Assembly (NCBI GenBank): GCA_947499005.1
Contig: CANMML010000008.1
Coordinates: 62,001-126,000 of the forward strand
DNA from: an uncultured Aquimarina sp.
GTDB taxonomy: Bacteria > Bacteroidota > Bacteroidia > Flavobacteriales > Flavobacteriaceae
Reading direction: 5' to 3'
Length of the DNA: 64,000 bases
The stretch's first letter is position 1. Every line of letters starts with the position of its first letter. Shown piece after piece: positions 36,953-49,023 of the stretch. The notes beneath the pieces were generated by a model. The model was given only the letters and a program-made list of their open reading frames with translations. It searched no databases and was not told the DNA's origin. A program made the translations under genes and the position numbers.

Positions 36953-38326
36953 TTACTTATCTTTATTTCCGATCTTGAAGCTATTGATATAACCGATTGG
37001 ATCTTTTCCGTCAAACTTATTTCCGTCAATAAATTCTGTTGTTGCTGGCTTATAACCATCAGTAGAAGGAATATCACTAGCAGGTATTTTACCTTCAGCA
37101 ACTAACAATTCAGCAGCTTTTTTCCAGATACCTGGCTTGTAAATATCTTTTGCTTTTGAAGCATACCAATCAGCTGGCTTAGCATCAGGAATCTGCCCCC
37201 AACGACGCATTTGAGTTAAGAACCATACTGCATCTGAGTAGAATGGGTATGTTGCATTGTAACGGTAGAATACATTAAAGTCAGGCATTGCTCTCTTATC
37301 TCCTTTTTCAAATTCGAAAGTTCCTGTCATAGAGTTTGCCAATACATTTACTGGTGCACCTACGTACTCTGGACGAGATAAAATGTCAACAGCTTCTTTT
37401 CTGTTTCCAGGAGCATCTAACCATTGTCCTGCACGAATTAATGCTTTTGTAATCGCAATCGTAGTGTTTGGATATTTCTTTGTAAACTCATCAGTCAATA
37501 CAAATACTTTCTCTGGGTTATTTTTCCAGATATCATAGTTTGTAGTTACAGGAACACCTATTCCTTTAAATACCGCTTGTTGATTCCAAGGTTCACCAAC
37601 ACAATAACCGTAAATAGTACCTGCCTCTAATGTAGCTGGCATTTGTGGCGGAGGAGTTACAGATAATAACACATCTGCATCAACTTGACCTTGAATATTC
37701 GCTTTAGTATACATACCTGGGTTGATTCCTGCAGCAGCTAACCAATAACGGATTTCGTAGTTATGTGTAGAAACCGGGAATACCATACCCATTTTAAAAG
37801 CTTTCCCATTCTTTTTATAATCATCAATTACAGGCTTCAAAGCATCTGCTCCAATCGGATGAACAGGCTTACCATCAGCACCTTTCTTTACATTTGGTTT
37901 CATTTTTGCCCAAACGTCATTAGAAACTGTAATACCATTACCATTTAAATCCATAGAATATGGAGTAACCAGTTTTGCTTGACGCCCAAATCCTGCTTGC
38001 GCAGCAATTGGCTGACCAGCTAACATATGAGAACCATCTAATTGACCATCAATTACACGATCCAAAATGTTCTTCCAGTTTGATTGCGCCTCTACAGAAA
38101 CAAATAATCCTTCATCTTCGAAGAATCCTTTTTCCTTAGCAATAGCTAAAGGAGCCATATCCGTTAACTTAATAAAACCAAACTTCAATTGTGGTTTTTC
38201 TATTTCTAAAGTTGGAGTTGCAGCAGCAGGAGCTTCCGTCACTGGTACTTCTTTTTTCTTCCCTCCACAAGAAACTAAGATCGCTGCTGTAGCAGCTGTA
38301 GCTAGTTGTAAAAACTTATTTTTCAT
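36953..38326 (-). CDS. nrtA: Nitrate/nitrite-binding lipoprotein, NrtA-like
   Basis: Substrate-binding protein of the importer, a 457-residue lipoprotein with lipobox L-V-S-C (Cys20). The mature part follows CmpA/Nrt[47 protein letters not shown], the LNGNGITVS strand, [22 protein letters not shown], and [13 protein letters not shown]. The length suits NrtA rather than the shorter SsuA/TauA proteins. It is the first gene of nrtABCD; the promoter at 38360-38393 carries the island's palindrome. Confidence 0.88.
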
Positions 38327-38359: not shown

Positions 38360-38393
38360 CAAATATAAGTATTTACTAAGTACAAATACTTAG
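38360..38393 (-). promoter_or_regulatory. nrtA promoter with nitrate-island palindrome
   Basis: Minus-strand -7 box TATATTTG (38360-38367) with a perfect palindrome CTAAGTA-N4-TACTTAG (38376-38393) directly upstream; another half-site (AATACTTA) abuts the -7 box. Both ends of this 34-base stretch (CTAAGTA and AATACTTATATTTG) recur at identical spacing in the porin promoter at 40418-40451. The shared palindrome is found at 38595, 40430, 41867 and 43377. Confidence 0.75.
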
Positions 38394-38594
38394 TTTTTGT
38401 AAATATTTTCTAAGTATTCTTAAACACATACTCAATCGACTGAAAAACAGTGTTTTAAAATCTAATATATTTTACCTTAACGCGAAAAATGACAAATAAA
38501 TAAGTATATCAGGTTATTTTTTATAATAAAAATTAGATTAAAAGCAATAAAAAACGGCAACTACAACATTTTCGAAAAAAAATAAGTACTTTTT

Positions 38595-38637
38595 TACGTA
38601 TTAATACTTAGTTTACTTATATCATTTCTTACATTTG
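38595..38637 (+). promoter_or_regulatory. Promoter of the P-box gene with nitrate-island palindrome
   Basis: TACGTA-TTAA-TACTTA (38595-38610) followed 19 bases later by the -7 box TACATTTG (38630-38637). The 19 bases from 38595 are identical to those starting at 43377 before nirB, and the distance from palindrome start to -7 box is 35 here and 36 there. Confidence 0.75.
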
Positions 38638-38693
38638 TATGACCAAACATTAGAAACAACCGACAAATTTATTTTGTCATAATAGATAAGATT

Positions 38694-39524
38694 ATGAAAA
38701 CTGTTATTACATCCCTGCTCATTCTATTAACGATGACCTTTAATACTTATGCTAATAAATTTACATTTGGCAAGATTAGCTACGGAAAAGCTACTAATAT
38801 ATCAGGTAAACAAAGGATGTTGTCTCAACGTATCACTAAGCTATACCTATTAAAGCTTGCAGGGTCACACGGTACTGAACTCACCAAAGAATTCAATTCT
38901 AGCATACAGTTATTTGAAAGAAACTTAGCAATACTAGAATCCAACAGTAAAGAAGCATCCATTAAAATAAAAACAACCCTAAAGAAAGAAAAGACGCAAT
39001 GGGAAGTTTTCAAAAAAGAACTTAGGGAACATTCACTTCAAAAAGTAGGTGCTGTTATGACGAAGTCTGGAGAACTACTAAAGAAATGTCACCAAGTGGT
39101 TTTAGCTATTGAAGAAGAATCTAAGTATACGCATGAATATGCCAATCACAATCCAAGCGAGCAACTTAAAGTAGAAACTGTAAACATATCTGGTAAACAA
39201 AGAATGTTATCTCAAAAACTTTGCCTATACTACACCGCTTGTCGTCTATACAGAAAAGAAAAATTAGATTACAAACCTATCTGTAGTGCCGTTGAAGAGA
39301 TTTATGCAGAAATGAATGAATCATTGAACTGGCTACTGATCAATGACCTAAACACATTTGCTGTAGAAGAAAACATTGGTAAAATTTTAGGGCTATTCCA
39401 ACAAATTGAAGAAAACAAGAAAGACTTTCTTGACAACAAATTACCTTTAATCAAAGTAATGGATCTTACCAATAGCATAACTAGTTTATATAATGTAATT
39501 ACTGGACAATACACATCCTTATAA
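38694..39524 (+). CDS. Secreted tandem P-box (PilJ/NarX-type sensor domain) protein
   Basis: A 276-residue exported helical protein: signal peptide ending near NTYA (residue 20), then two P-box-like motifs, NISGKQRMLSQRITK at 35-49 and NISGKQRMLSQKL at 164-176, each followed by a long helical stretch. It is a full-length paralogue of the gene at 4560. NarX-type sensors carry one such motif per chain and bind nitrate at the dimer interface; two in one chain could build the site within a single molecule. No membrane or output domain is present. It sits among nitrate genes with the shared operator. Confidence 0.82.
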   Translation: MKTVITSLLILLTMTFNTYANKFTFGKISYGKATNISGKQRMLSQRITKLYLLKLAGSHGTELTKEFNSSIQLFERNLAILESNSKEASIKIKTTLKKEKTQWEVFKKELREHSLQKVGAVMTKSGELLKKCHQVVLAIEEESKYTHEYANHNPSEQLKVETVNISGKQRMLSQKLCLYYTACRLYRKEKLDYKPICSAVEEIYAEMNESLNWLLINDLNTFAVEENIGKILGLFQQIEENKKDFLDNKLPLIKVMDLTNSITSLYNVITGQYTSL

Positions 39525-39550
39525 TTAGTAACTACACAAATCACACACTC

Positions 39551-39586
39551 AAAAGGGGTAGAAATTAAAATTTCTACCCCTTTTTT
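39551..39586. terminator. Bidirectional terminator
   Basis: A perfect 16-base stem (AAAAGGGGTAGAAATT, 39551-39566, with 39569-39584) and a 2-base loop, ending in T6 on the plus strand and T4 on the minus strand. It serves both the P-box gene and the convergent response-regulator gene. Confidence 0.9.
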
Positions 39587-39617
39587 ACGTTCTATTTTTT
39601 TTAGCTGAAGCCCCTCA

Positions 39618-40313
39618 TTAAATCAATCCATATTTTCTAGCCTTATTACTTAAGTCTAAAATATTCTTCACATTTAGCTTCTTCATCAAATTGAAACGGT
39701 GCACCTCAGTTGTTCTCTTACTAATACCTAACGCTTCTGCAATTTCCTTATTACTAAAACCAGCCACTGCCTTCTCTAGAATTTGTCGTTCTCTTTTAGT
39801 AAGATTAAAGTTAACATTAACTGGTTGTGTATCAGTTGTTGTAACCACCTCTTCCTCAACATATATTTCAGAATTTACACTTTCACCACCTCCTATGATA
39901 CTATTTACCAATATAGAAGACACATCTCCACTATAATATTTCGCCCCTTCTTTTACAGTTTGGATAGCTTTCAAAAACTCTTCTTTACCTGCATCTTTCA
40001 ACAAATACCCATGAGCTCCGGCTTTAATCGATTGCAAAATGTATTCTTCCGAATCATGCATTGAAAGCATTATATACTTAGTCGCTAAGTATTCTTTAGA
40101 CAATCTCGAGACAGCTTCTATCCCTGTCATATTAGGCATTCGAATATCACAGATCAATAAATCAGGTTTCAACTCGGCTGTAAGTTGAATTGCCTCTTCT
40201 CCATTCGAAGCTTCACCAATAACCTCTAATCCTGTTTGGTCTGCTAGCAATGACTTTATTCCATCCCTTACTAGGGAATGATCATCAACAAGAAGAATTC
40301 TAAATTTATCCAT
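39618..40313 (-). CDS. NarL/LuxR-type response regulator
   Basis: A 231-residue regulator: receiver domain with the acidic pair D10-D11, phospho-acceptor Asp56 in LICDIRMPNMTG and the late Lys in GYLLKDAGKEEF; then a linker and a C-terminal LuxR helix-turn-helix (about 165-225, LTKRERQILEKAVAGFSNKEIAEAL). I start at the ATG at 40313 (MDKFRILLVDD), the usual start before the first strand; an in-frame GTG at 40325 is possible. It is the only DNA-binding protein in the nitrate island and the natural partner of the HisKA_3 kinase at 47224, though not adjacent to it. Confidence 0.92.
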   Translation of the reverse strand: MDKFRILLVDDHSLVRDGIKSLLADQTGLEVIGEASNGEEAIQLTAELKPDLLICDIRMPNMTGIEAVSRLSKEYLATKYIMLSMHDSEEYILQSIKAGAHGYLLKDAGKEEFLKAIQTVKEGAKYYSGDVSSILVNSIIGGGESVNSEIYVEEEVVTTTDTQPVNVNFNLTKRERQILEKAVAGFSNKEIAEALGISKRTTEVHRFNLMKKLNVKNILDLSNKARKYGLI

Positions 40314-40333
40314 ATATCTTTTCACTTACTTTA

Positions 40334-40352
40334 CAAAAATAACTAAGTACTT
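40334..40352 (-). promoter_or_regulatory. Promoter of the response-regulator gene with related half-sites
   Basis: Minus-strand -7 box TATTTTTG (40334-40341) preceded by AAGTACTTAG (40343-40352). The half-sites are the same as in the neighbouring promoters, but the N4 palindrome is not clean; a further ACTTAAGT lies at 40373-40380. Autoregulation is possible. Confidence 0.5.
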
Positions 40353-40417
40353 TAATTTAACAAAAATCTTTTACTTAAGTTACTCTATCTAAGAATTATT
40401 TATTTTTTTTCAAAAAA

Positions 40418-40451
40418 CTAAGTAATACTTAAGTATTAATACTTATATTTG
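40418..40451 (+). promoter_or_regulatory. Porin promoter with nitrate-island palindrome
   Basis: TAAGTA-TTAA-TACTTA (40430-40445) runs into the -7 box TATATTTG (40444-40451), and an overlapping 16-base perfect palindrome TAATACTTAAGTATTA spans 40423-40438. CTAAGTA at 40418 lies at the same distance from the -7 box as in the nrtA promoter. Here the main palindrome is much closer to the -7 box than in the nirB promoter. Confidence 0.75.
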
Positions 40452-40485
40452 TATTGTAATCATTAGATAACTACAACTATTTAAT

Positions 40486-41790
40486 ATGAAAAAATCACAT
40501 TTACTTACTGGAGCCTTTGCTGTATTAGGATTATACAGTGTAGGTGCACAAGAATTATCGATTGACGCTGAAATCAGACCTCGTGCTGAAATCTTAAATG
40601 GTTTTGGAGAGCCTGCTTTAGGAGCTGATGATCCTGGAGCTTTAGTTACTCAACGTTCGGCTATTAAATTCAAGTATAAAAGCGAGAAAATAACTACATT
40701 TTTATCTGTTCAAGACGTAAGCACATGGGGAGATAGACCTCAAATTAATGCTGCAAATGGAGAGTCGACTCGTATACAAGAGGCTTGGGCTAAATTAGAT
40801 TTAGGAAAAGGATTTTCTGCTAAAATTGGTCGCCAGCCATTATCTTATGATGATCAACGTATTTTAGGTGGTCTTGGATGGGCACAACAAGCTAGAACAC
40901 ATGATGTTGGTGTTTTTGGATACGTTAATAAAGGATTAAAAATTGATGCTGGTTTTGGTTTTAATCAAACTGGTGTTGGAACAAGAGGTAGAACAAACAC
41001 AGCATTCAATGCTACAGGAGCAGGTGTTCCTATTTTCCAATACAAAGGAATTGGATTTGTTCATTTAAACAACAAATTCAATGATAACTTTTCTGGTAGC
41101 TTCTTATTTTTAGGGAATTCATTCCAAGATGCAATAGATCCAAATGATGGAACACCAGGAACTACTGACAGATATACTTCTGGGGTACATTTAAAATACA
41201 AAAAAGGAGCTTTTGGAGCTAGCGTTAATGGATACTACCAATTTGGTAGCTTCAGAAGTGACGACGTAGATGCTAAAGGATTCTTAGCTGGTATTGATCT
41301 TACATACAAGCCTGGAAAGACTTTATTTGGACTTGGTTATGAGTACATTAGTGGTGATGACCCTGATACTGCTGACGAATTTGAAGGATTCTTCCCATTG
41401 TTTGGTACTAACCACAAATTCAATGGATTCATGGATTTCTTTTATGTAGGTAACCACGCATTAGCAAACGGACTACAAGATATCAATGCTAAAGTAGTAT
41501 TTAAAACAGGAGCAAAATCTACATTATTGGTTAAAGCTCACCAATTCTTAGCGGCACAAGACAACCCTAATTTAGCTGATACCTTTGGAACCGAAATAGA
41601 TTTAGTATTCAAAACACCTATAGTTAAAGGTGCTACTTTATTAGTTGGATACTCTCAAGCTTTCTTAGACGACGATTTCCTTGCACAAAGAGGAGTTACG
41701 CCAGGTACAGAAAGCGATTTCCAAGCTTGGGGATGGACTATGTTAGTAATCAAGCCTAACTTATTCAAGTGGAAAAAAGAAGCAAAATAA
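40486..41790 (+). CDS. Outer-membrane porin, alginate-export-like family
   Basis: A 434-residue barrel protein with a signal peptide ending near VGAQ. The mature part starts LSIDAEIRPRAEILNGFG and has paired amphipathic strands, including TTFLSVQDVSTWGDR, IQEAWAKLDLGKGFSAKIGRQPLSYDDQRILGG and FFYVGNHALANGLQDINAKVVFK. This fits the alginate-export (AlgE-like) family, which in Bacteroidota often serves as a general or anion porin. The place between nrt, narK and nirB and the shared operator suggest it lets nitrate or nitrite through the outer membrane; that is inference. Confidence 0.8.
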   Translation: MKKSHLLTGAFAVLGLYSVGAQELSIDAEIRPRAEILNGFGEPALGADDPGALVTQRSAIKFKYKSEKITTFLSVQDVSTWGDRPQINAANGESTRIQEAWAKLDLGKGFSAKIGRQPLSYDDQRILGGLGWAQQARTHDVGVFGYVNKGLKIDAGFGFNQTGVGTRGRTNTAFNATGAGVPIFQYKGIGFVHLNNKFNDNFSGSFLFLGNSFQDAIDPNDGTPGTTDRYTSGVHLKYKKGAFGASVNGYYQFGSFRSDDVDAKGFLAGIDLTYKPGKTLFGLGYEYISGDDPDTADEFEGFFPLFGTNHKFNGFMDFFYVGNHALANGLQDINAKVVFKTGAKSTLLVKAHQFLAAQDNPNLADTFGTEIDLVFKTPIVKGATLLVGYSQAFLDDDFLAQRGVTPGTESDFQAWGWTMLVIKPNLFKWKKEAK

Positions 41791-41825
41791 TAAGTTTCGT
41801 TTATCATAAATAATTGTTAGAGTTT

Positions 41826-41857
41826 AAAGCCTCGATCTTCGGATTGGGGCTTTTTTT
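41826..41857 (+). terminator. Strong terminator of the porin gene (UUCG loop)
   Basis: AAAGCCTCGATC (41826-41837) pairs with GATTGGGGCTTT (41842-41853, two G-U pairs) around a TTCG tetraloop and is followed by T7. A textbook rho-independent terminator, ten bases before the next operator palindrome. Confidence 0.92.
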
Positions 41858-41866
41858 GTAAAAAAA

Positions 41867-41907
41867 TAAGTATAAGTACTTAGATCTACTTAGTTAATGT
41901 ATATTCG
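41867..41907 (+). promoter_or_regulatory. narK promoter with nitrate-island palindrome
   Basis: TAAGTA-TAAG-TACTTA (41867-41882), then CTACTTAG and, 33 bases from the palindrome start, a -7-like box TATATTCG (41900-41907, one mismatch to TAnnTTTG). A further half-site TTACTTAG lies at 41916-41923, inside the leader. Confidence 0.65.
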
Positions 41908-41944
41908 CACTCGAATTACTTAGTTAATATAAAATTCACTCCCT

Positions 41945-43345
41945 ATGAATTCATCTGGCAAAGCAACTAAATTAGAGTTGCTAAATTTTAAGTCATTGCC
42001 TACGCGCACGTTTTGGATAACGGCATTGGCTTTTTTTATGTGTTTTTTCGCATGGTTTGGTATTGTACCTTTTATGCCATACGTAGTTAAGGATCTAGGC
42101 TTATCTCCTGATCAAAAATGGAACTCTATTATCCTAGCAGTTACAGGAACTGTATTTGCTCGTTTACTAATTGGTAAACTTTGTGATAAGTACGGCCCAA
42201 GAATTTGTTATACTTGGCTGTTAACACTTGGTGCCATACCCGTAATCTTAATTGGTTTTGTACAAACACCAATGCAATTTTTAATCTGTAGATTATTTAT
42301 TGGTTTTATTGGAGCTTCTTTTGTGATCACTCAGTTTCACACGTCGATCATGTTTGCTCCTAATATTGTAGGTACAGCCAATGCAACATCTGCTGGTTGG
42401 GGTAACTTAGGTGGTGGTGCTAACCGTTTAGGAATGCCATTAATTGCTGCTGCTGTAGTTAGTTTTGGTATCGCACAAGAAGACGCTTGGAGGTATTCTA
42501 TGATTATCGCTGGTGTCATTTGTTTCTTAATGGGAATTGTATACTTTTTCTTTACACAGGATACTCCCGAAGGAAATTATAAAGAACTAAGAGCACAAGG
42601 ACGCTTACCAAAACCTAAAAAGGATGAAGCAAGCTTTGCTACGGCCTTAAAAGACTACCGTGTTTGGATTTTATTCATCGTATATGCTGCCTGTTTTGGT
42701 ATGGAATTAACCGTATATGGTACTATGGATGATTACCTACAAAACACCTTTAATTTGGAAAGAACTACAGCAGGTAACCTAGTATTATCATTCGCTTTGA
42801 TGAACATTTTCGCAAGAACACTAGGTGGATTTTTTGGAGATAAATTTGGTAACAGCAAAGGATTAAGAGGCCGCGTACTTTTCTTGGCTGCAATCTTAGC
42901 CGTAGAAGGAATTATGTTATCTACTTTCTCTAGTGTATCTTCTAGTTTTATCGTTGCATTTATCTTCTTAATTGGATTTAGTTTATCTGTACAAATGGCA
43001 GAAGGAGCTACATTCTCTGTAGTACCTTTTATCAATAAAAAGGCTATTGGTTCTATTAGTGGTATTGTAGGTGCAGGAGGAAATGTTGGAGCTTTCTTAG
43101 CTGCAATCTTATTAAAATCTAGATCTGCAATAGCAGAAAAAGCCGCTATCGTTTCTAATGATGGAGCAGCGCAAAGTGTTATCGATGCTGCCCAATCTGC
43201 CGCTTCATCATCTGCTGTTTCTGGAGGCTATTTTTTCATCGGACTTGTAGTTATAGCAACTGCAACATTATCACTTGCTATCAAATTCTCAAGCGAAGAG
43301 GAAAAATCAATAAATAATGAAATAAAAGTTACACCTGCTATCTAA
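41945..43345 (+). CDS. narK: NarK-like nitrate/nitrite MFS transporter
   Basis: A 466-residue major facilitator with 12 helices. It bears the nitrate-porter signatures in helix 5 (SAGWGNLGGGANRLGMP) and helix 11 (GIVGAGGNVGAFLAAILL), and the RLLIGKLCDKYGPR loop after helix 2. A small cytoplasmic tail follows helix 12. It could import nitrate or exchange it for nitrite. The window therefore holds two unrelated importers (MFS and ABC) for the same anions. It is expressed from its own operator-bearing promoter, 599 bases before nirB's start if measured from its end of coding at 43345 the gap is 94 bases. Confidence 0.9.
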   Translation: MNSSGKATKLELLNFKSLPTRTFWITALAFFMCFFAWFGIVPFMPYVVKDLGLSPDQKWNSIILAVTGTVFARLLIGKLCDKYGPRICYTWLLTLGAIPVILIGFVQTPMQFLICRLFIGFIGASFVITQFHTSIMFAPNIVGTANATSAGWGNLGGGANRLGMPLIAAAVVSFGIAQEDAWRYSMIIAGVICFLMGIVYFFFTQDTPEGNYKELRAQGRLPKPKKDEASFATALKDYRVWILFIVYAACFGMELTVYGTMDDYLQNTFNLERTTAGNLVLSFALMNIFARTLGGFFGDKFGNSKGLRGRVLFLAAILAVEGIMLSTFSSVSSSFIVAFIFLIGFSLSVQMAEGATFSVVPFINKKAIGSISGIVGAGGNVGAFLAAILLKSRSAIAEKAAIVSNDGAAQSVIDAAQSAASSSAVSGGYFFIGLVVIATATLSLAIKFSSEEEKSINNEIKVTPAI

Positions 43346-43376
43346 AAAGTAGCATTTTTAAAATAATTACTCTAAA

Positions 43377-43420
43377 TACGTATTAATACTTAGTTATTTA
43401 AGTGAATATACGTATTTTTG
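43377..43420 (+). promoter_or_regulatory. nirB promoter with nitrate-island palindrome
   Basis: TACGTA-TTAA-TACTTA (43377-43392), identical over 19 bases to the site before the P-box gene at 38595, followed by AAGTGAATATACGTA and the -7 box TATTTTTG (43413-43420). The ATG is at 43440. Confidence 0.75.
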
Positions 43421-43439: not shown

Positions 43440-45962
43440 ATGAAGCATATAATTGTTATCGGAAATGGAATGGTGGGTTACAAATTCTGTGAAAAATTAG
43501 TGGCCCTTCCGAATTATTCAGATTTTAAACTGACTGTTTTTGGTGAAGAACCCCGGAGAGCTTATGACCGCGTTCACTTAAGTGAATTTTATGATGGTAA
43601 AACTGCCGAAGATCTAAGTATGTCATCTGCTTCTTGGTACGACGAAAATAATATTGATCTTCACGTATCTGAAATGATTACAGAAATCGATCGAGAAAAT
43701 AAAACGGTTGCTAATCATAGAGGTGACAAGTACAATTATGATACTCTTGTATTTGCATCAGGTTCTTCTGCGTTCGTTCCTCCTATTCAAGGAATCGAAA
43801 AAGAAGGAGTATTTGTATATAGAACCATTGAAGATTTAGAGGCTACCGAAGCTTACGCTAAGAAATTAAAAGCACAAGGAAAAACAGAAGCAGCTGTTTT
43901 AGGTGGTGGTCTACTTGGTCTTGAAGCTGCAAATGCAGTTAAAAATCTTGGATTAAATGCTCATGTAGTAGAATTTGCTCCTAGATTAATGCCAAGACAA
44001 TTAGATAAAGGTGGTAGTGATATGCTACAATCTAAGATCGAAGAACTTGGTTTAAAAGTTCACCTTTCAAAACAAACACAATTTCTTCAAGGTGATAAAG
44101 CTATTGAAGGTCTACAATATGTAGATGGTACCGAATTAAAAGTAGATATGTTAGTCGTATCTGCTGGTATTCGTCCTCGTGATGAAGTTGCAAAAGAATG
44201 TGGGTTAGAGATTGGTACTCGTGGTGGTATTGTGGTAAACAATAAAATGCTTACCAATGACCCTAACATTTATGCTATTGGAGAATGTGCTTTATTAAAT
44301 AGTATGATTTATGGTTTGGTAGCTCCTGGATATGATATGGCAGAAGTTGCTGTTCAACAAATCACAGGAAATACTGAGGCCGAAATGCCATCTGCTATAG
44401 ATATGTCAACAGTACTTAAATTGATTGGTACTGATGTGGCGAGTTTTGGAGATGCTTTGAATTTTGCCAAAGAAGAAGTAGACGAAATTACTTTTGAAAA
44501 TAAACGTACTGGAATCTACAAGAAGATTAACGTTACTAAAGATGGAACTAAATTATTAGGAGGAATCTTGGTAGGAGACTCTTCAGATTATAACTCATTG
44601 TATCAGATTTACATCAATGGTATGAAGCTTCCTGAAAACCCTGAAGACCTTATCTTAGGTTCTCGCGGTGGAGAAGATGGAGGATTGTTAGGTGATGTAA
44701 TGGATCTTCCAGATGATGCCCAAATTTGTTCTTGTGAAAGTGTTTCTAAAGGACAAATCTGTGGAGCCATTGAAAGTGGAGAAGCTAATGACTTGGGGGA
44801 TGTGGTAAGCTGTACTAAAGCAGGAACTGGTTGTGGTGGTTGTAAACCAATGGTCGCTGATTTAGTAAATGCTACCTTAAAATCTCTTGGACGTGAAGTT
44901 AAAGATTCTGTTTGTGAACACTTTGATCAAAATAGACAAGAATTATACAGCATCATTCAAGTAAAAGGATATCAAACCTTCGATGAAGTATTAGATAATC
45001 ACGGAAATGGTGGACATGGGTGTGAATTATGTAAGCCGCTTGTTGCATCATTAATGGCAACCATTCATGCTGATACTGCTAATAAAGAATATGCTATTCA
45101 AGATTCTAATGATCGTTTCTTAGCAAATATTCAACGTAACGGAACCTATTCTGTAGTACCAAGGATTCCTGGAGGAGAAATTACTCCTGATAAATTAATA
45201 GCACTTGGTGAGATTGCAAAAAAATATGACTTATACACCAAAATAACAGGTGGTGTAAGAATCGATATGTTTGGTGCAACCTTAAACCAGTTACCATTAA
45301 TCTGGAAAGATTTGGTAGATCATGGATTTGAAAGTGGTCATGCTTATGGTAAATCATTACGTACAGTGAAGACTTGTGTAGGTTCTACATGGTGTCGCTA
45401 TGGTATGGATGAAAGTGTAAGTTTTGGAATAGAATTAGAGAATCGTTACCGTGGTATGCGTTCTCCTCACAAAATAAAAGGTGGAGTTTCTGGTTGTATT
45501 CGAGAATGTGCGGAAGCACGTGGTAAAGATTTTGGATTAATTGCCGTTGATGGTGGTTGGAATCTTTATGTAGGTGGTAACGGTGGTGCTACACCTAGAC
45601 ATGCCGAATTATTAGCCGAACAGATTGATAATGAAACTGTGGTTAAGTATTTAGATCGTTATTTGATGTTCTACATGCGTACAGCCAAACCTCTACAACG
45701 TACTGCCGCTTGGCAAGATCGTTTGGAAGGTGGTATAGAATATTTAAAACAAGTAATCATCGAAGATTCTTTAGGAATTGCTGAAGATCTTGATAAAGAA
45801 ATGCAGACACTTGTTAACAAATTCGAATGCGAATGGACACAAGCAATCAAAGATCCTGAAATGATGAAGCGATTTAATCATTTTGTAAATAGTGAAGAAG
45901 AAGATGACAATTTAGTTTTTGTTCCTTTAAGAGAGCAAAAAATGCCAGAACCTTGGAAGTAA
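43440..45962 (+). CDS. nirB: NADH-dependent assimilatory nitrite reductase, large subunit
   Basis: Reduces nitrite to ammonium with NADH. 840 residues, the usual size. Order: FAD/NAD-binding module (IIVIGNGMVGYKFCEKL at 4-20, AVLGGGLLGLEAA near 155), a BFD-like [2Fe-2S] domain (C-S-C at 430-432 to C-G-G-C near 462), a second BFD-like segment (about 490-545), a nitrite/sulfite reductase half-domain, and the siroheme-[4Fe-4S] domain with C-V-G-S-T-W-C near 645-651 and G-C-I-R-E-C near 685-689. Followed by nirD after a structured 144-base gap. Confidence 0.95.
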   Translation: MKHIIVIGNGMVGYKFCEKLVALPNYSDFKLTVFGEEPRRAYDRVHLSEFYDGKTAEDLSMSSASWYDENNIDLHVSEMITEIDRENKTVANHRGDKYNYDTLVFASGSSAFVPPIQGIEKEGVFVYRTIEDLEATEAYAKKLKAQGKTEAAVLGGGLLGLEAANAVKNLGLNAHVVEFAPRLMPRQLDKGGSDMLQSKIEELGLKVHLSKQTQFLQGDKAIEGLQYVDGTELKVDMLVVSAGIRPRDEVAKECGLEIGTRGGIVVNNKMLTNDPNIYAIGECALLNSMIYGLVAPGYDMAEVAVQQITGNTEAEMPSAIDMSTVLKLIGTDVASFGDALNFAKEEVDEITFENKRTGIYKKINVTKDGTKLLGGILVGDSSDYNSLYQIYINGMKLPENPEDLILGSRGGEDGGLLGDVMDLPDDAQICSCESVSKGQICGAIESGEANDLGDVVSCTKAGTGCGGCKPMVADLVNATLKSLGREVKDSVCEHFDQNRQELYSIIQVKGYQTFDEVLDNHGNGGHGCELCKPLVASLMATIHADTANKEYAIQDSNDRFLANIQRNGTYSVVPRIPGGEITPDKLIALGEIAKKYDLYTKITGGVRIDMFGATLNQLPLIWKDLVDHGFESGHAYGKSLRTVKTCVGSTWCRYGMDESVSFGIELENRYRGMRSPHKIKGGVSGCIRECAEARGKDFGLIAVDGGWNLYVGGNGGATPRHAELLAEQIDNETVVKYLDRYLMFYMRTAKPLQRTAAWQDRLEGGIEYLKQVIIEDSLGIAEDLDKEMQTLVNKFECEWTQAIKDPEMMKRFNHFVNSEEEDDNLVFVPLREQKMPEPWK

Positions 45963-46106: not shown

Positions 46107-46484
46107 ATGGAAAACATTTTAGATAAATATAAAACAGTAGAAGCTTCTAAGGTAAAAGTATGGTTTGAAGCAGCTAAAGCATCGAATTTCCCCAAAGATG
46201 GTGGTGCTTGTATTAAATATAAGGACAAACAAATTGCTGTATTTAACTTCGCTCGTGAAGGGAAATGGTATGCTTGTCAAAACTTATGCCCTCATAAGAT
46301 GGAAATGGTATTAAGCCGAGGGATGATCGGGGATGACAAAGGAATTCCTAAAGTGGCTTGTCCATTACATAAAAAAACTTTTTCTTTGGAAAACGGAGAA
46401 AATTTAAATGGAGATATGGATGCTATTGCAACCTACCCTGTTAAGATAGAGAACGATGTTGTATATGTAGGATTTACCGAGTAA
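46107..46484 (+). CDS. nirD: Nitrite reductase small subunit NirD with intact Rieske ligands
   Basis: Partner of NirB. A 125-residue Rieske-fold protein. Unlike E. coli NirD, which has lost the cluster ligands, this one retains C61-x-H63 (CPH) and C85-x2-H88 (CPLH), so it could bind a [2Fe-2S] cluster. That is read from the sequence; that the cluster is present is inference. It follows nirB on the same strand and ends in a clear terminator at 46535-46561. Confidence 0.92.
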   Translation: MENILDKYKTVEASKVKVWFEAAKASNFPKDGGACIKYKDKQIAVFNFAREGKWYACQNLCPHKMEMVLSRGMIGDDKGIPKVACPLHKKTFSLENGENLNGDMDAIATYPVKIENDVVYVGFTE

Positions 46485-46636: not shown

Positions 46637-47221
46637 ATGAATGTAGAATTACTTGAAAAAACATTTGTTGCTATAGACCAAGCAAATAAGAAAGATCCTA
46701 ATACAGAAATAGTTGATAATGTAAAGGTTCCCAAAGAATTGATCTACGGACAGCGCATGAGCGAAATGCTTGATATGTTTAAACCTAATGCTAGTGATGC
46801 GCTTAAAATTGCAGCACGTGCTCAACATATATGCCGATGGGAAAGCCCTAGATCTAATTATGAAATGAATCGAAAAGGATATCTATTATGGCGCTCTGAA
46901 TTGAAAAAATTTCACGCAAAAAAGACTGGGGAAATTATGACTGAATTAGGTTATGATTACAAGACGATTGAACAAGTAAGTTTTTTACTCCAAAAGAAAC
47001 AACTGAAACGTAACGAAGAAACACAATGTTTAGAAGACGTTGTTTGCTTAGTTTTTTTAAAATATTACTACGAAGCTTTTAGAGTAAAACATAATGATGA
47101 AAAAGTAATTGATATTGTCCAAAAGACTTGGAAAAAAATGTCCGAAAAGGGGCATAATGCTGCATTACAATTAAATTACTCAGAAAAAGGGCTTTCCTTG
47201 ATCCAACAAGCCCTAGCTTAA
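46637..47221 (+). CDS. DUF4202 family protein
   Basis: A 194-residue soluble protein matching DUF4202: AIDQANKKDPNTEI at the N-terminus, ELIYGQRMSEMLDMFKP, the conserved AARAQHICRWESPRSNYEMNRKGYLLWRSELKKFHA block, and EDVVCLVFLKYYYEAF. The pattern of His, Trp and Arg residues suggests an HD-like helical fold, but the activity is unknown. Members are frequently found beside nitrate/nitrite assimilation genes, as here. It is two bases upstream of the sensor kinase, so the two are surely co-expressed. Confidence 0.85.
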   Translation: MNVELLEKTFVAIDQANKKDPNTEIVDNVKVPKELIYGQRMSEMLDMFKPNASDALKIAARAQHICRWESPRSNYEMNRKGYLLWRSELKKFHAKKTGEIMTELGYDYKTIEQVSFLLQKKQLKRNEETQCLEDVVCLVFLKYYYEAFRVKHNDEKVIDIVQKTWKKMSEKGHNAALQLNYSEKGLSLIQQALA

Positions 47222-47223
47222 TT

Positions 47224-49023
47224 ATGACAGAAACTCTAGACAAAAAAACCTTTTACTCACTAAGGAAAATCTATATGATCGCCTTAGGGTTAATTGCTTT
47301 TTTAGTACTCCTTAGCCAAATTTTCATTCAACGCGCGCTATCCCGTAATGATTATGATGCAAGAATCATAAACATTGCTGGTAGGCAACGTATGCTAAGT
47401 CAAAAAATTAGTAAGACTATTTTAATTTGGAATTCCAATATAGAAATCACTAAAGACAATAATCAAGAACTTGTCGACGATACTAACGAATGGAGGTTAG
47501 CACATTCATTACTAAAAAACAACCTCAACAGTTTAGGTCAGTCTACAGGAAAACAAAGGCTATTAGAAAAATTTGAGAAAATTGATATTGAGATAAATCA
47601 CCTACTAAACTTATCTCAAAACATTCAAAAAAATATAGGTTCTAATGAAATTGAAACCTCTAAAAGTATAAAAGGATTTCTGCTAGCAGAACCTAGCTTT
47701 CTGAAGCACATGAATGATTACGTTTATTTGTATGAAAATTATGTTGAAAGTAAAATCGATCAAATAAAAACCTTCGAGTTAGCGACATTTATACTGGTAT
47801 TGTCCATTCTAATTGCTGAAATTCTATTGTTATTTAGACCAGCTGCAAGAAAGATGCGAAACACCATCAAACAACTAATAGCTAGCAATGAACAAGCAAT
47901 GAATATGGCTGAAAAAGCAAACATTGCAGTAAAACAAAAAAATGAAACTTTAGACGAATTACAAATACTTCAGAAAGCAATCAATCAAACGCTTCTCTTT
48001 GCCCGAATAGATAAAAAGGGAGTAATTATATCCGCTGGAAAACGGATGAAAGATATGCTGGCTAAACAACAGAATTACAATCCTGTCATTTATGAAAGCC
48101 TAGGGCTGTCTGAAAGTAACCTTAGAGAATTGCAAATGCTCGTTAATTCTCAAAAAGGTAGCATTCTAAATCATGAGTATGCCGTTTCTATCAAAAACTC
48201 TACTATTGAATGGCTAGATATTTCTGTATTTCCTATTATTAAGAATGAAGGAGTCATTGAATATTTAATGGTATGTTTAGATATCACCAGACGTAAGAAG
48301 GCTCAAGAAAATATAGAAGCATTAAGAGATGAAAAGCTAAAGATAGATACAGCACTCCAAAAATCTAAAGCCAGTCTTATCGTAGAAGCACAAGAAGAGG
48401 AGCGTAAACGTATTGCTAAAGACATTCACGATAGTATAGGCCAAATGTTAACAGCTCTAAAATTCAATATTGAGTCTTTAAATACAGAAGAAATAAATGT
48501 ATTAAATGATAAAATTAAAGTTTTAAAGGAACAAACCAGAAATATCATTCTAGGAGTACGAATGGCTACTTTTAATCTGACTCCCCCAGAGTTATTGGAC
48601 TATGGAATCGTAACTGCCATTGGTAAAATGGTAACTCAATTAAATAAATTCAGCAAAGCCGAAATTATTTTCAATAGTGACGCCTCAAAACAACTTCGAT
48701 TTGACAGCCTTATAGAAACAAATTTGTATCGAGTAACTCAAGAAAGCATTAATAATGCTATTAAATATGCCCAGGCATCATACATAGTAGTTTCTATGAA
48801 AACAAGCCAAGAGATGTTAAGCATTACAGTAACAGATAATGGAAAAGGGTTTGATAAAACCAAAATTGCTCAGAAACCAAAAGGAGGTTCTGAAGGAGGA
48901 ATGGGCTTATTTTTCATGAAAGAGCGCATGGAATATATTAATGGACGTATTTTCATTAATTCGCAACCTGGTAATGGGTCTAGAGTAGTAATTAATATGC
49001 CTCTAGAAGTACAAACAATCTAA
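47224..49023 (+). CDS. NarX-like sensor histidine kinase with P-box sensor domain
   Basis: A 599-residue membrane kinase. Order: TM1 (about 16-34); periplasmic helical PilJ/NarX-type domain with the P-box-like INIAGRQRMLSQKI (50-63); TM2 (about 186-204); a coiled linker; a PAS-like domain (about 250-355); HisKA_3 dimerisation region with phospho-acceptor His402 in AKDIHDSIGQ; and an HATPase with N-box (NNAIKYA), DNGKGFD and GGMGLFFMKER. This is the NarX/LuxR-partner class, so the response regulator at 39618 is its likely target. The stop overlaps the convergent moeA stop by four bases. Confidence 0.9.
   Translation: MTETLDKKTFYSLRKIYMIALGLIAFLVLLSQIFIQRALSRNDYDARIINIAGRQRMLSQKISKTILIWNSNIEITKDNNQELVDDTNEWRLAHSLLKNNLNSLGQSTGKQRLLEKFEKIDIEINHLLNLSQNIQKNIGSNEIETSKSIKGFLLAEPSFLKHMNDYVYLYENYVESKIDQIKTFELATFILVLSILIAEILLLFRPAARKMRNTIKQLIASNEQAMNMAEKANIAVKQKNETLDELQILQKAINQTLLFARIDKKGVIISAGKRMKDMLAKQQNYNPVIYESLGLSESNLRELQMLVNSQKGSILNHEYAVSIKNSTIEWLDISVFPIIKNEGVIEYLMVCLDITRRKKAQENIEALRDEKLKIDTALQKSKASLIVEAQEEERKRIAKDIHDSIGQMLTALKFNIESLNTEEINVLNDKIKVLKEQTRNIILGVRMATFNLTPPELLDYGIVTAIGKMVTQLNKFSKAEIIFNSDASKQLRFDSLIETNLYRVTQESINNAIKYAQASYIVVSMKTSQEMLSITVTDNGKGFDKTKIAQKPKGGSEGGMGLFFMKERMEYINGRIFINSQPGNGSRVVINMPLEVQTI

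Follow-up and report, generated by a model that had tools for sequence, protein, structure and literature searches.

A FixJ-like palindrome at the nitrate-gene promoters of an Aquimarina genome and the NarL-family regulator proposed to bind it

A 64,000-nucleotide stretch of contig CANMML010000008.1 (positions 62,001 to 126,000) from an uncultured Aquimarina sp. (assembly GCA_947499005.1), hereafter the window, contains an island of nitrate and nitrite genes, and raises the question of which protein recognizes a 16-bp palindrome that recurs at its promoters, and how. A pattern scan finds five exact matches to TAMGTA-N4-TACTTA in the island, at the promoters of nrtA, the P-box gene, the porin gene, narK and nirB (Table 1), where an earlier reading of the sequence alone (the sequence-only reading) had placed them. 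That reading was right about the presence of the nrtA site, but its coordinates (38376–38393) included one base too many on each side; the identity of the sites at 38595 and 43377 over 19 bases is borne out, and does not extend to 20. Based on the observations below, we propose that the palindrome, in the extended form TAMGTA-N4-TACKTA, is very probably the operator of a dimer of the response regulator encoded at 39618–40310 (NarRR), whose partner would be the sensor kinase encoded at 47224–49023 (NarHK).

Rarity and conservation of the palindrome

Exact matches are rare across the source genome (G000; 4,163,503 bases in 190 contigs). The 21 strand hits correspond to 14 distinct places, against two hits for a reversed control pattern, and five of the 14 places lie inside the 5,061-bp island stretch (binomial P = 5e-12); two of the remaining nine are within genes and seven are intergenic. 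The motif is thus not equally frequent elsewhere in the genome. A one-mismatch site lies just upstream of a nasA-type molybdopterin oxidoreductase gene, of the assimilatory nitrate reductase kind, on another contig. Tolerating one mismatch across the whole genome gives no excess (108 hits versus 184 for the control), and tolerating two in the window gives 38 hits versus 25 ± 7 in shuffles, with 5 of 100 shuffles reaching 38; since these scans yield no clear enrichment, counts were thereafter restricted to the exact or TACKTA-extended forms.

Conservation was evaluated in the best 80 of 224 confirmed nirB loci (Aquimarina and other Flavobacteriaceae, 1.66 Mb) from a search in which each GTDB species was represented by one genome; orthologues were placed by tblastn, and matches of <85% coverage or with <100 bp of upstream sequence were excluded. 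The TACKTA-extended form lies ≤300 bp upstream of nirB (77/79), nrtA (33/33), narK (27/30), the porin gene (27/36), the regulator gene (44/60) and the P-box gene (13/20), counts that are not independent, because the 80 loci are related, many of them from one genus, and divergent gene pairs share sites; the 44/60 in particular is affected where the regulator gene diverges from the porin gene and both share one upstream region. Over the same distance it is absent from the internal genes: nirD (0/80), DUF4202 (0/76), the kinase gene (0/73), nrtB (0/33), nrtC (0/28) and nrtD (0/28). The related half-sites claimed for the response-regulator promoter amount in the window to merely a two-mismatch copy (40344–40359), yet 44 orthologues carry the motif. 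At the unlinked nitrate reductase gene nasA the exact motif is found within 350 bp in 25 of 26 congener loci, the sole miss (L224) having hardly any upstream sequence within the scanned stretch. The motif is thus kept, rather than lost, at orthologous nirB, nrtA, narK and nasA promoters; this conservation and the rarity elsewhere support the suggestion that it is the operator of a nitrate or nitrogen regulon.

The spacing of the half-sites is equally specific. Diverging half-sites 4 bp apart give 248 matches in the 1.66 Mb, spacings of 0–3 and 5–23 bp give 1 to 27, and spacings of 24 and 25 bp give 28 and 44, an excess that we take for second sites two turns away. Converging and direct-repeat pairs are also in excess at 4 bp (30 and 173 hits), probably because TACGTA is identical to its reverse complement. 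A gene start lies ≤350 bp downstream of 243 of the 248 sites, and is that of a named island gene or nasA for 236 and only of another gene for 7; five sites lack one, and four sites lie within an open reading frame (ORF). The resulting 316 site–gene links are distributed over nirB (79), nrtA (48), the regulator gene (46), narK (32), the porin gene (29), nasA (25), the P-box gene (24) and others (33), the last including 10 with a cobA-like and 6 with a globin-like protein, both named by resemblance. To chance matches in A+T-rich intergenic DNA we therefore give next to no credence: the degenerate matches, no commoner than controls genome-wide and barely so in the window, would suit such an origin, but it is refuted by the conservation across the 80 nirB loci, and is at odds with the exact-match counts, the spacing specificity and a TACGTA cluster before nirB in a stretch of 61% GC (described below).

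Outside the island, the motif of the source genome also occurs at glnA, beside a nitrilase gene, and at BBP2 porin and lpd genes. In three close relatives (G153, G155 and G183), intergenic sites recur at lpd, nitrilase/AraC, BBP2 porin, glnA and nasA genes (3/3 each); those at globin and sdhC genes are less constant (1/3 each), and the site of the Tll0287 operon is absent (0/3). Setting glnA and nasA aside, 15 of 23 off-island sites in relatives are at shared genes; three of the remaining 8 are inside ORFs. Several off-island sites lie between divergent genes, so that the target gene is ambiguous. All three relatives have a site between P-II-like and gltB-like genes (L260:2587, L269:2520 and L272:2478). 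Motif-like sites are also seen at three genes related to the tricarboxylic acid cycle: sucC-like (one mismatch), sdhC-like and lpd (L025:4842, L026:4838 and L027:4795), of which the lpd site recurs in all three relatives and the sdhC one in a single relative. The recurrence of sites at glnA, nitrilase, BBP2 porin and lpd genes, together with the P-II-like/gltB-like site, could indicate that the palindrome is the site of a regulator of nitrogen status in general. This seems to us very unlikely, as the conserved core consists of nitrate genes and glnA sites are present in just 5 of the 30 loci examined among congeners (from 33 genomes that have a match) and in 1 of the 30 examined in the family (from 95), with 0/25 where the regulator is absent. 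The absence of glnA sites from the other 25 congener and 29 family loci makes the wider nitrogen regulon a local extension; that glnA proves a general nitrogen regulon was rejected, its sites being confined to the closest relatives.

The candidate binder

The regulator encoded at 39618 is the best candidate binder, as predicted from co-occurrence and from the likeness of its helix-turn-helix (HTH) domain. It belongs to the FixJ/NarL family, with a receiver domain (PF00072, E 7e-31) and a GerE/LuxR-type HTH (PF00196, E 3e-20). The best whole-protein PDB match is NarL; the HTH alone is closest to EsrB (7e-14), 1yio, FixJ (1x3u, 1e-10) and SsrB, with NarL farther away (about 1e-5). All 66 orthologues read have the recognition-helix pattern RTxExHRFN, which neither of the two divergent regulators beside nirB (L229 and L231) shares. 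The kinase, located beside nirB at ≥85% coverage in 73/80 loci, has the PilJ, HisKA_3 and HATPase_c domains of a nitrate-sensing kinase of the NarX/NarQ/NarHK kind, and its segment INIAGRQRMLSQK contains G-x-x-R, matching the P-box and G-x-x-R sensor motif described in passages of PMC8199190.

In a family sample of 149 genomes, one per genus, with 19 regulator candidates scored per genome, a regulator orthologue (>200 bits) was found in 30 genomes and a partial match in a 31st (G030). The possibility that G030 has nirB without the regulator was rejected: the initial match covered residues 1–136 only, and the locus holds a near full-length orthologue (51% over residues 1–229) with the motif at nirB, so that G030 was counted as positive. 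The orthologue is present in 31/31 genomes with nirB (E 1e-150) versus 0/118 without it, in which no match exceeds 143 bits among the 19 candidates scored. The median motif count per genome is 8 versus 3 for the control where the regulator is present, and 1 versus 2 where it is absent (Mann–Whitney P = 8e-13); the motif with NTTTTG after it is seen in 26/31 genomes with the regulator and 3/118 without (46 hits; reversed control 3). Five genomes that lack a regulator orthologue (G028, G029, G068, G076 and G141) have 6–11 motif hits against 0–2 for the control. In three others without a close orthologue (G107, G130 and G101), most of the listed hits are a different palindrome, mostly TACGTAG-NN-CTACGTA.

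A target-controlled test was made on 16 nirB-positive genomes, out of 28 such genomes among 395 sampled across the phylum; it took in each of the 13 that lie outside the family and 3 of the 15 within it. Five have a regulator orthologue of ≥220 bits, and the other eleven reach at most 173 bits; the exact motif occurs in the 20-kb nirB stretch of 4/5 genomes with the orthologue versus 0/11 without (Fisher P = 0.003). In the fifth orthologue-bearing stretch, of 61% GC, nirB is preceded by TACGTA-N5-TACGTA with TTTTTG after it; of the 7 TACGTA in these 20 kb, 6 lie ≤160 bp upstream of the nirB start.

In many bacteria nitrogen genes are under the control of Crp/Fnr regulators, and a member of that family, or some other regulator, might bind the palindrome instead of the NarL-type regulator. 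An Fnr-like gene does carry the extended motif in four genomes, but it looks like a target, and Crp/Fnr half-sites are TTGAT-N4-ATCAA or TGTGA-N6-TCACA, whereas the conserved halves here are TAMGTA/TACKTA. Because, in addition, motif presence tracks the NarL-type regulator and the published FixJ site has the same geometry and a TAAGTA half-site, we consider a Crp/Fnr or other binder unlikely. In the four genomes concerned (L141, L148, L158 and L162) the Fnr-like Crp-family gene stands behind an operator and TTTTG, with 22–25 bp from the palindrome to the start codon (domains checked in 2/4 genomes); by analogy, the arrangement could be a FixJ–FixK-like cascade.

Two further proteins of the locus touch on the proposed pair. 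The P-box gene product (38694–39524) is probably exported, has its own operator upstream and might serve the kinase as a soluble nitrate-binding partner. The DUF4202 protein is found at ≥85% coverage in 76/80 nirB loci and in all five outgroup-test loci with an orthologous regulator; in the stretch L232, which is without the regulator, a DUF4202 gene occurs at another place.

Position at the −7 box and sign of regulation

The −7 consensus of F. psychrophilum is TAnnTTTG at −12 to −5, as given in passages of PMC9723704, and transcription starts were predicted here from such boxes. That each palindrome of the window stands next to a box of this type was loosely put: the porin box overlaps its site by two bases, but the other four are 9–20 bp away (nrtA 9 bp, narK 17 bp, P-box gene 19 bp, nirB 20 bp). 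Across the loci, the site centre is 10 bp from the box centre in 134 of 235 site–gene links, the last TA of the palindrome being the TA of TAnnTTTG; 37 links have no downstream box. In this commonest arrangement the site spans −26 to −11 and is centred at about −18.5. Other site–box distances cluster at 18–22 and 30–34 bp, with some regulator-gene sites at 76–94 bp. Where the spacing differs from 10 bp, it tends to keep to the helical phase (R = 0.62, 0.70 and 0.75 at 10, 10.5 and 11 bp, given without a significance value) in a set of 43 related links of ≤60 bp, from which 21 longer and the 37 boxless links were left out. Where site and box occur together, a −33 TTG is scarce (4.6% of 219 versus 19% of 162 control boxes, a hint only, as the controls are themselves predicted promoters), and extra half-sites are enriched at −32/−33, −22/−23 and +30/+31 (18 to 31 of 219 each, versus a mean of 2.3 per other offset).

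We favour activation over repression, because the −33 TTG is absent, the exact nirB, P-box gene and narK sites lie near −40, and the spacings tend to follow the helix. As a tentative but plausible model, a regulator dimer positioned between −33 and −7 would activate from there in place of the −33 element, its site having two bases in common with the −7 box and second dimers lying about two turns upstream; if true, a response regulator would be using a MerR-like position, one that suits the housekeeping promoter of Bacteroidota. The same binder might act with the opposite sign, masking −26 to −11 together with some of the −7 box until nitrate or dephosphorylation lifts the block. Such repression, a question of sign only since it shares the binder, would agree with the overlap of palindrome and −7 box in the 134 links, and half-sites at +30/+31, past the predicted start, could form an occlusion complex with those at −22/−23 and −32/−33; unphosphorylated FixJ is, moreover, reported in passages of PMC13327599 to repress R. 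palustris nitrogenase genes. It is nevertheless doubtful, as promoters with a −18.5 site and no −33 TTG look weak unaided, and neither the window's sites near −40 nor the helical phasing of the other spacings fit it well.

Several points weigh against the proposed regulator, its operator or its activating role: (i) because the regulator is inherited together with the kinase, DUF4202 and nirB, co-occurrence does not set it apart from the module as a whole, and in the comparison of five with eleven genomes both phylogeny and the co-inherited kinase are confounders; (ii) some regulator-less genomes have a motif excess over the control (G028, 8 versus 0; G068, 11 versus 2), and 8 of the 23 off-island sites have no adjacent gene at which a site is found elsewhere; (iii) the 80 loci are related, and the absence of the regulator from nirB-negative genomes refers to the candidates scored; and (iv) the starts are predicted, the −33 control set is weak, and a −18.5 site overlapping the −7 box is in a repressor-like position.

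With activation by NarRR as the favoured reading, nitrate would bind the periplasmic domain of the NarHK kinase, and the regulator would then be phosphorylated. Its dimers would bind the palindrome via the FixJ-like HTH, with the half-sites one helical turn apart. The targets would comprise uptake (nrtABCD, narK and the porin), assimilation (nasA and nirBD, plus a cobA-like gene in certain relatives) and the regulator's own gene. At −18.5 promoters the regulator would stand in for the missing −33 contact, the other sites being one or two turns upstream.

Table 1. Coordinates of predicted promoter elements and genes of the nitrate island in the window
Feature	Position	Strand	Remarks
nrtA, nitrate ABC transporter binding lipoprotein	36953–38326	−	PF13379; name by resemblance
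Predicted −7 box TATATTTG, nrtA	38360–38367	−	from sequence; consensus TAnnTTTG
Extra half-site TACTTA, nrtA promoter	38366–38371		meets −7 box
Operator, nrtA promoter	38377–38392	−	exact match; predicted centre −29.5
Operator, P-box gene promoter	38595–38610	+	exact match; predicted centre −39.5
Predicted −7 box TACATTTG, P-box gene	38630–38637	+	
Free-standing PilJ-N domain protein (P-box gene)	38694–39524	+	PF13675, E 4e-16; two ISGKQRMLSQ repeats (P-box-like)
FixJ/NarL-family response regulator (NarRR)	39618–40310	−	Response_reg + GerE; proposed binder
Possible −7 box TATTTTTG, response-regulator promoter	40334–40341	−	
Degenerate operator, response-regulator promoter	40344–40359	−	2 mismatches
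Operator, porin promoter	40430–40445	+	exact match, perfect palindrome; shares TA with −7 box; predicted centre −18.5
Predicted −7 box TATATTTG, porin gene	40444–40451	+	
Outer-membrane porin, Alginate_exp family	40486–41790	+	PF13372
Operator, narK promoter	41867–41882	+	exact match; predicted centre −37.5
Predicted −7 box TATATTCG, narK	41900–41907	+	one base off consensus
narK-type transporter (major facilitator superfamily)	41945–43345	+	PF07690; name narK by resemblance
Distal operator, nirB promoter	43377–43392	+	exact match; predicted centre −40.5
Proximal operator TAAGTGAATATACGTA, nirB promoter	43399–43414	+	one mismatch; shares TA with −7 box; predicted centre −18.5
Predicted −7 box TATTTTTG, nirB	43413–43420	+	
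nirB, assimilatory nitrite reductase large subunit	43440–45962	+	Pyr_redox_2, NIR_SIR, Fer2_BFD
nirD, Rieske-like small subunit	46107–46484	+	PF13806
DUF4202 protein	46637–47221		between nirD and kinase
Nitrate-sensor histidine kinase (NarHK)	47224–49023	+	PilJ-N/P-box, HisKA_3, HATPase_c; proposed partner of regulator

Comparison with known systems

In the open-licence literature searched, no nitrate operator of Bacteroidota was found. What is new is the operator and its regulon; the kinase–regulator gene pair is already known, the Bacteroidetes narHK/narRR pair beside nitrate genes having been named from gene order and architecture in PMC8199190, whose passages covering this same pair hold no operator or regulon. 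For the nitrate use of marine flavobacteria, an operator is now proposed in addition to the known gene order. With a conserved 16-bp operator assigned to a single regulator the regulon becomes readable, unlinked genes included, and the fixed −18.5 position raises the question of how regulators act on the TAnnTTTG promoters of Bacteroidota.

The E. coli NarXL and NarQP systems likewise pair a P-box sensor kinase with a NarL-family regulator of nitrate and nitrite genes; they differ in the recognition helix, and the targets here are assimilatory. The E. coli NarL operator consists of TACYYMT heptamers in a converging 7-2-7 arrangement, and converging TACKTA/TAMGTA pairs 2 bp apart number just 4 in 1.66 Mb (TACYYMT itself was not scanned for). 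The sequence-only reading was right to separate the palindrome from this geometry, but its comparison with Crp/Fnr geometry calls for revision: Crp/Fnr operators share a short inverted repeat with a central spacer, their half-site is unrelated, and the nearest published site found is that of FixJ.

The S. meliloti FixJ site in the fixK promoter is TAAGTAATTTCCCTTA, that is, TAAGTA-N4-CCCTTA, and one class of FixJ sites from systematic evolution of ligands by exponential enrichment, GTAMGTAG, holds the TAMGTA core (passages of PMC4999443); the fixK site of R. palustris is GTACGTAG (passages of PMC13327599). FixJ and the regulator proposed here share the response-regulator family, a TAAGTA half-site, the 16-bp 6-N4-6 layout and a similar recognition helix, and on sequence the palindrome may be classed as a FixJ-type operator, with TAMGTA in a 16-bp 6-N4-6 imperfect palindrome whose right half differs (CCCTTA in FixJ, TACKTA here). 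Further differences, according to the same passages of PMC4999443, are that oxygen is the signal of FixLJ, that its conserved targets are few, and that FixJ binds −69 to −31 of fixK, compared with −18.5 here. Since the site of FixJ, a member of the same family, matches, the mismatch with the 7-2-7 arrangement does not exclude a binder of the NarL/FixJ family. Most likely the palindrome is the operator of the NarHK–NarRR pair of Bacteroidota, with a FixJ-like sequence and an unusual placement at the −7 box; this would link FixJ-type DNA recognition to another phylum.

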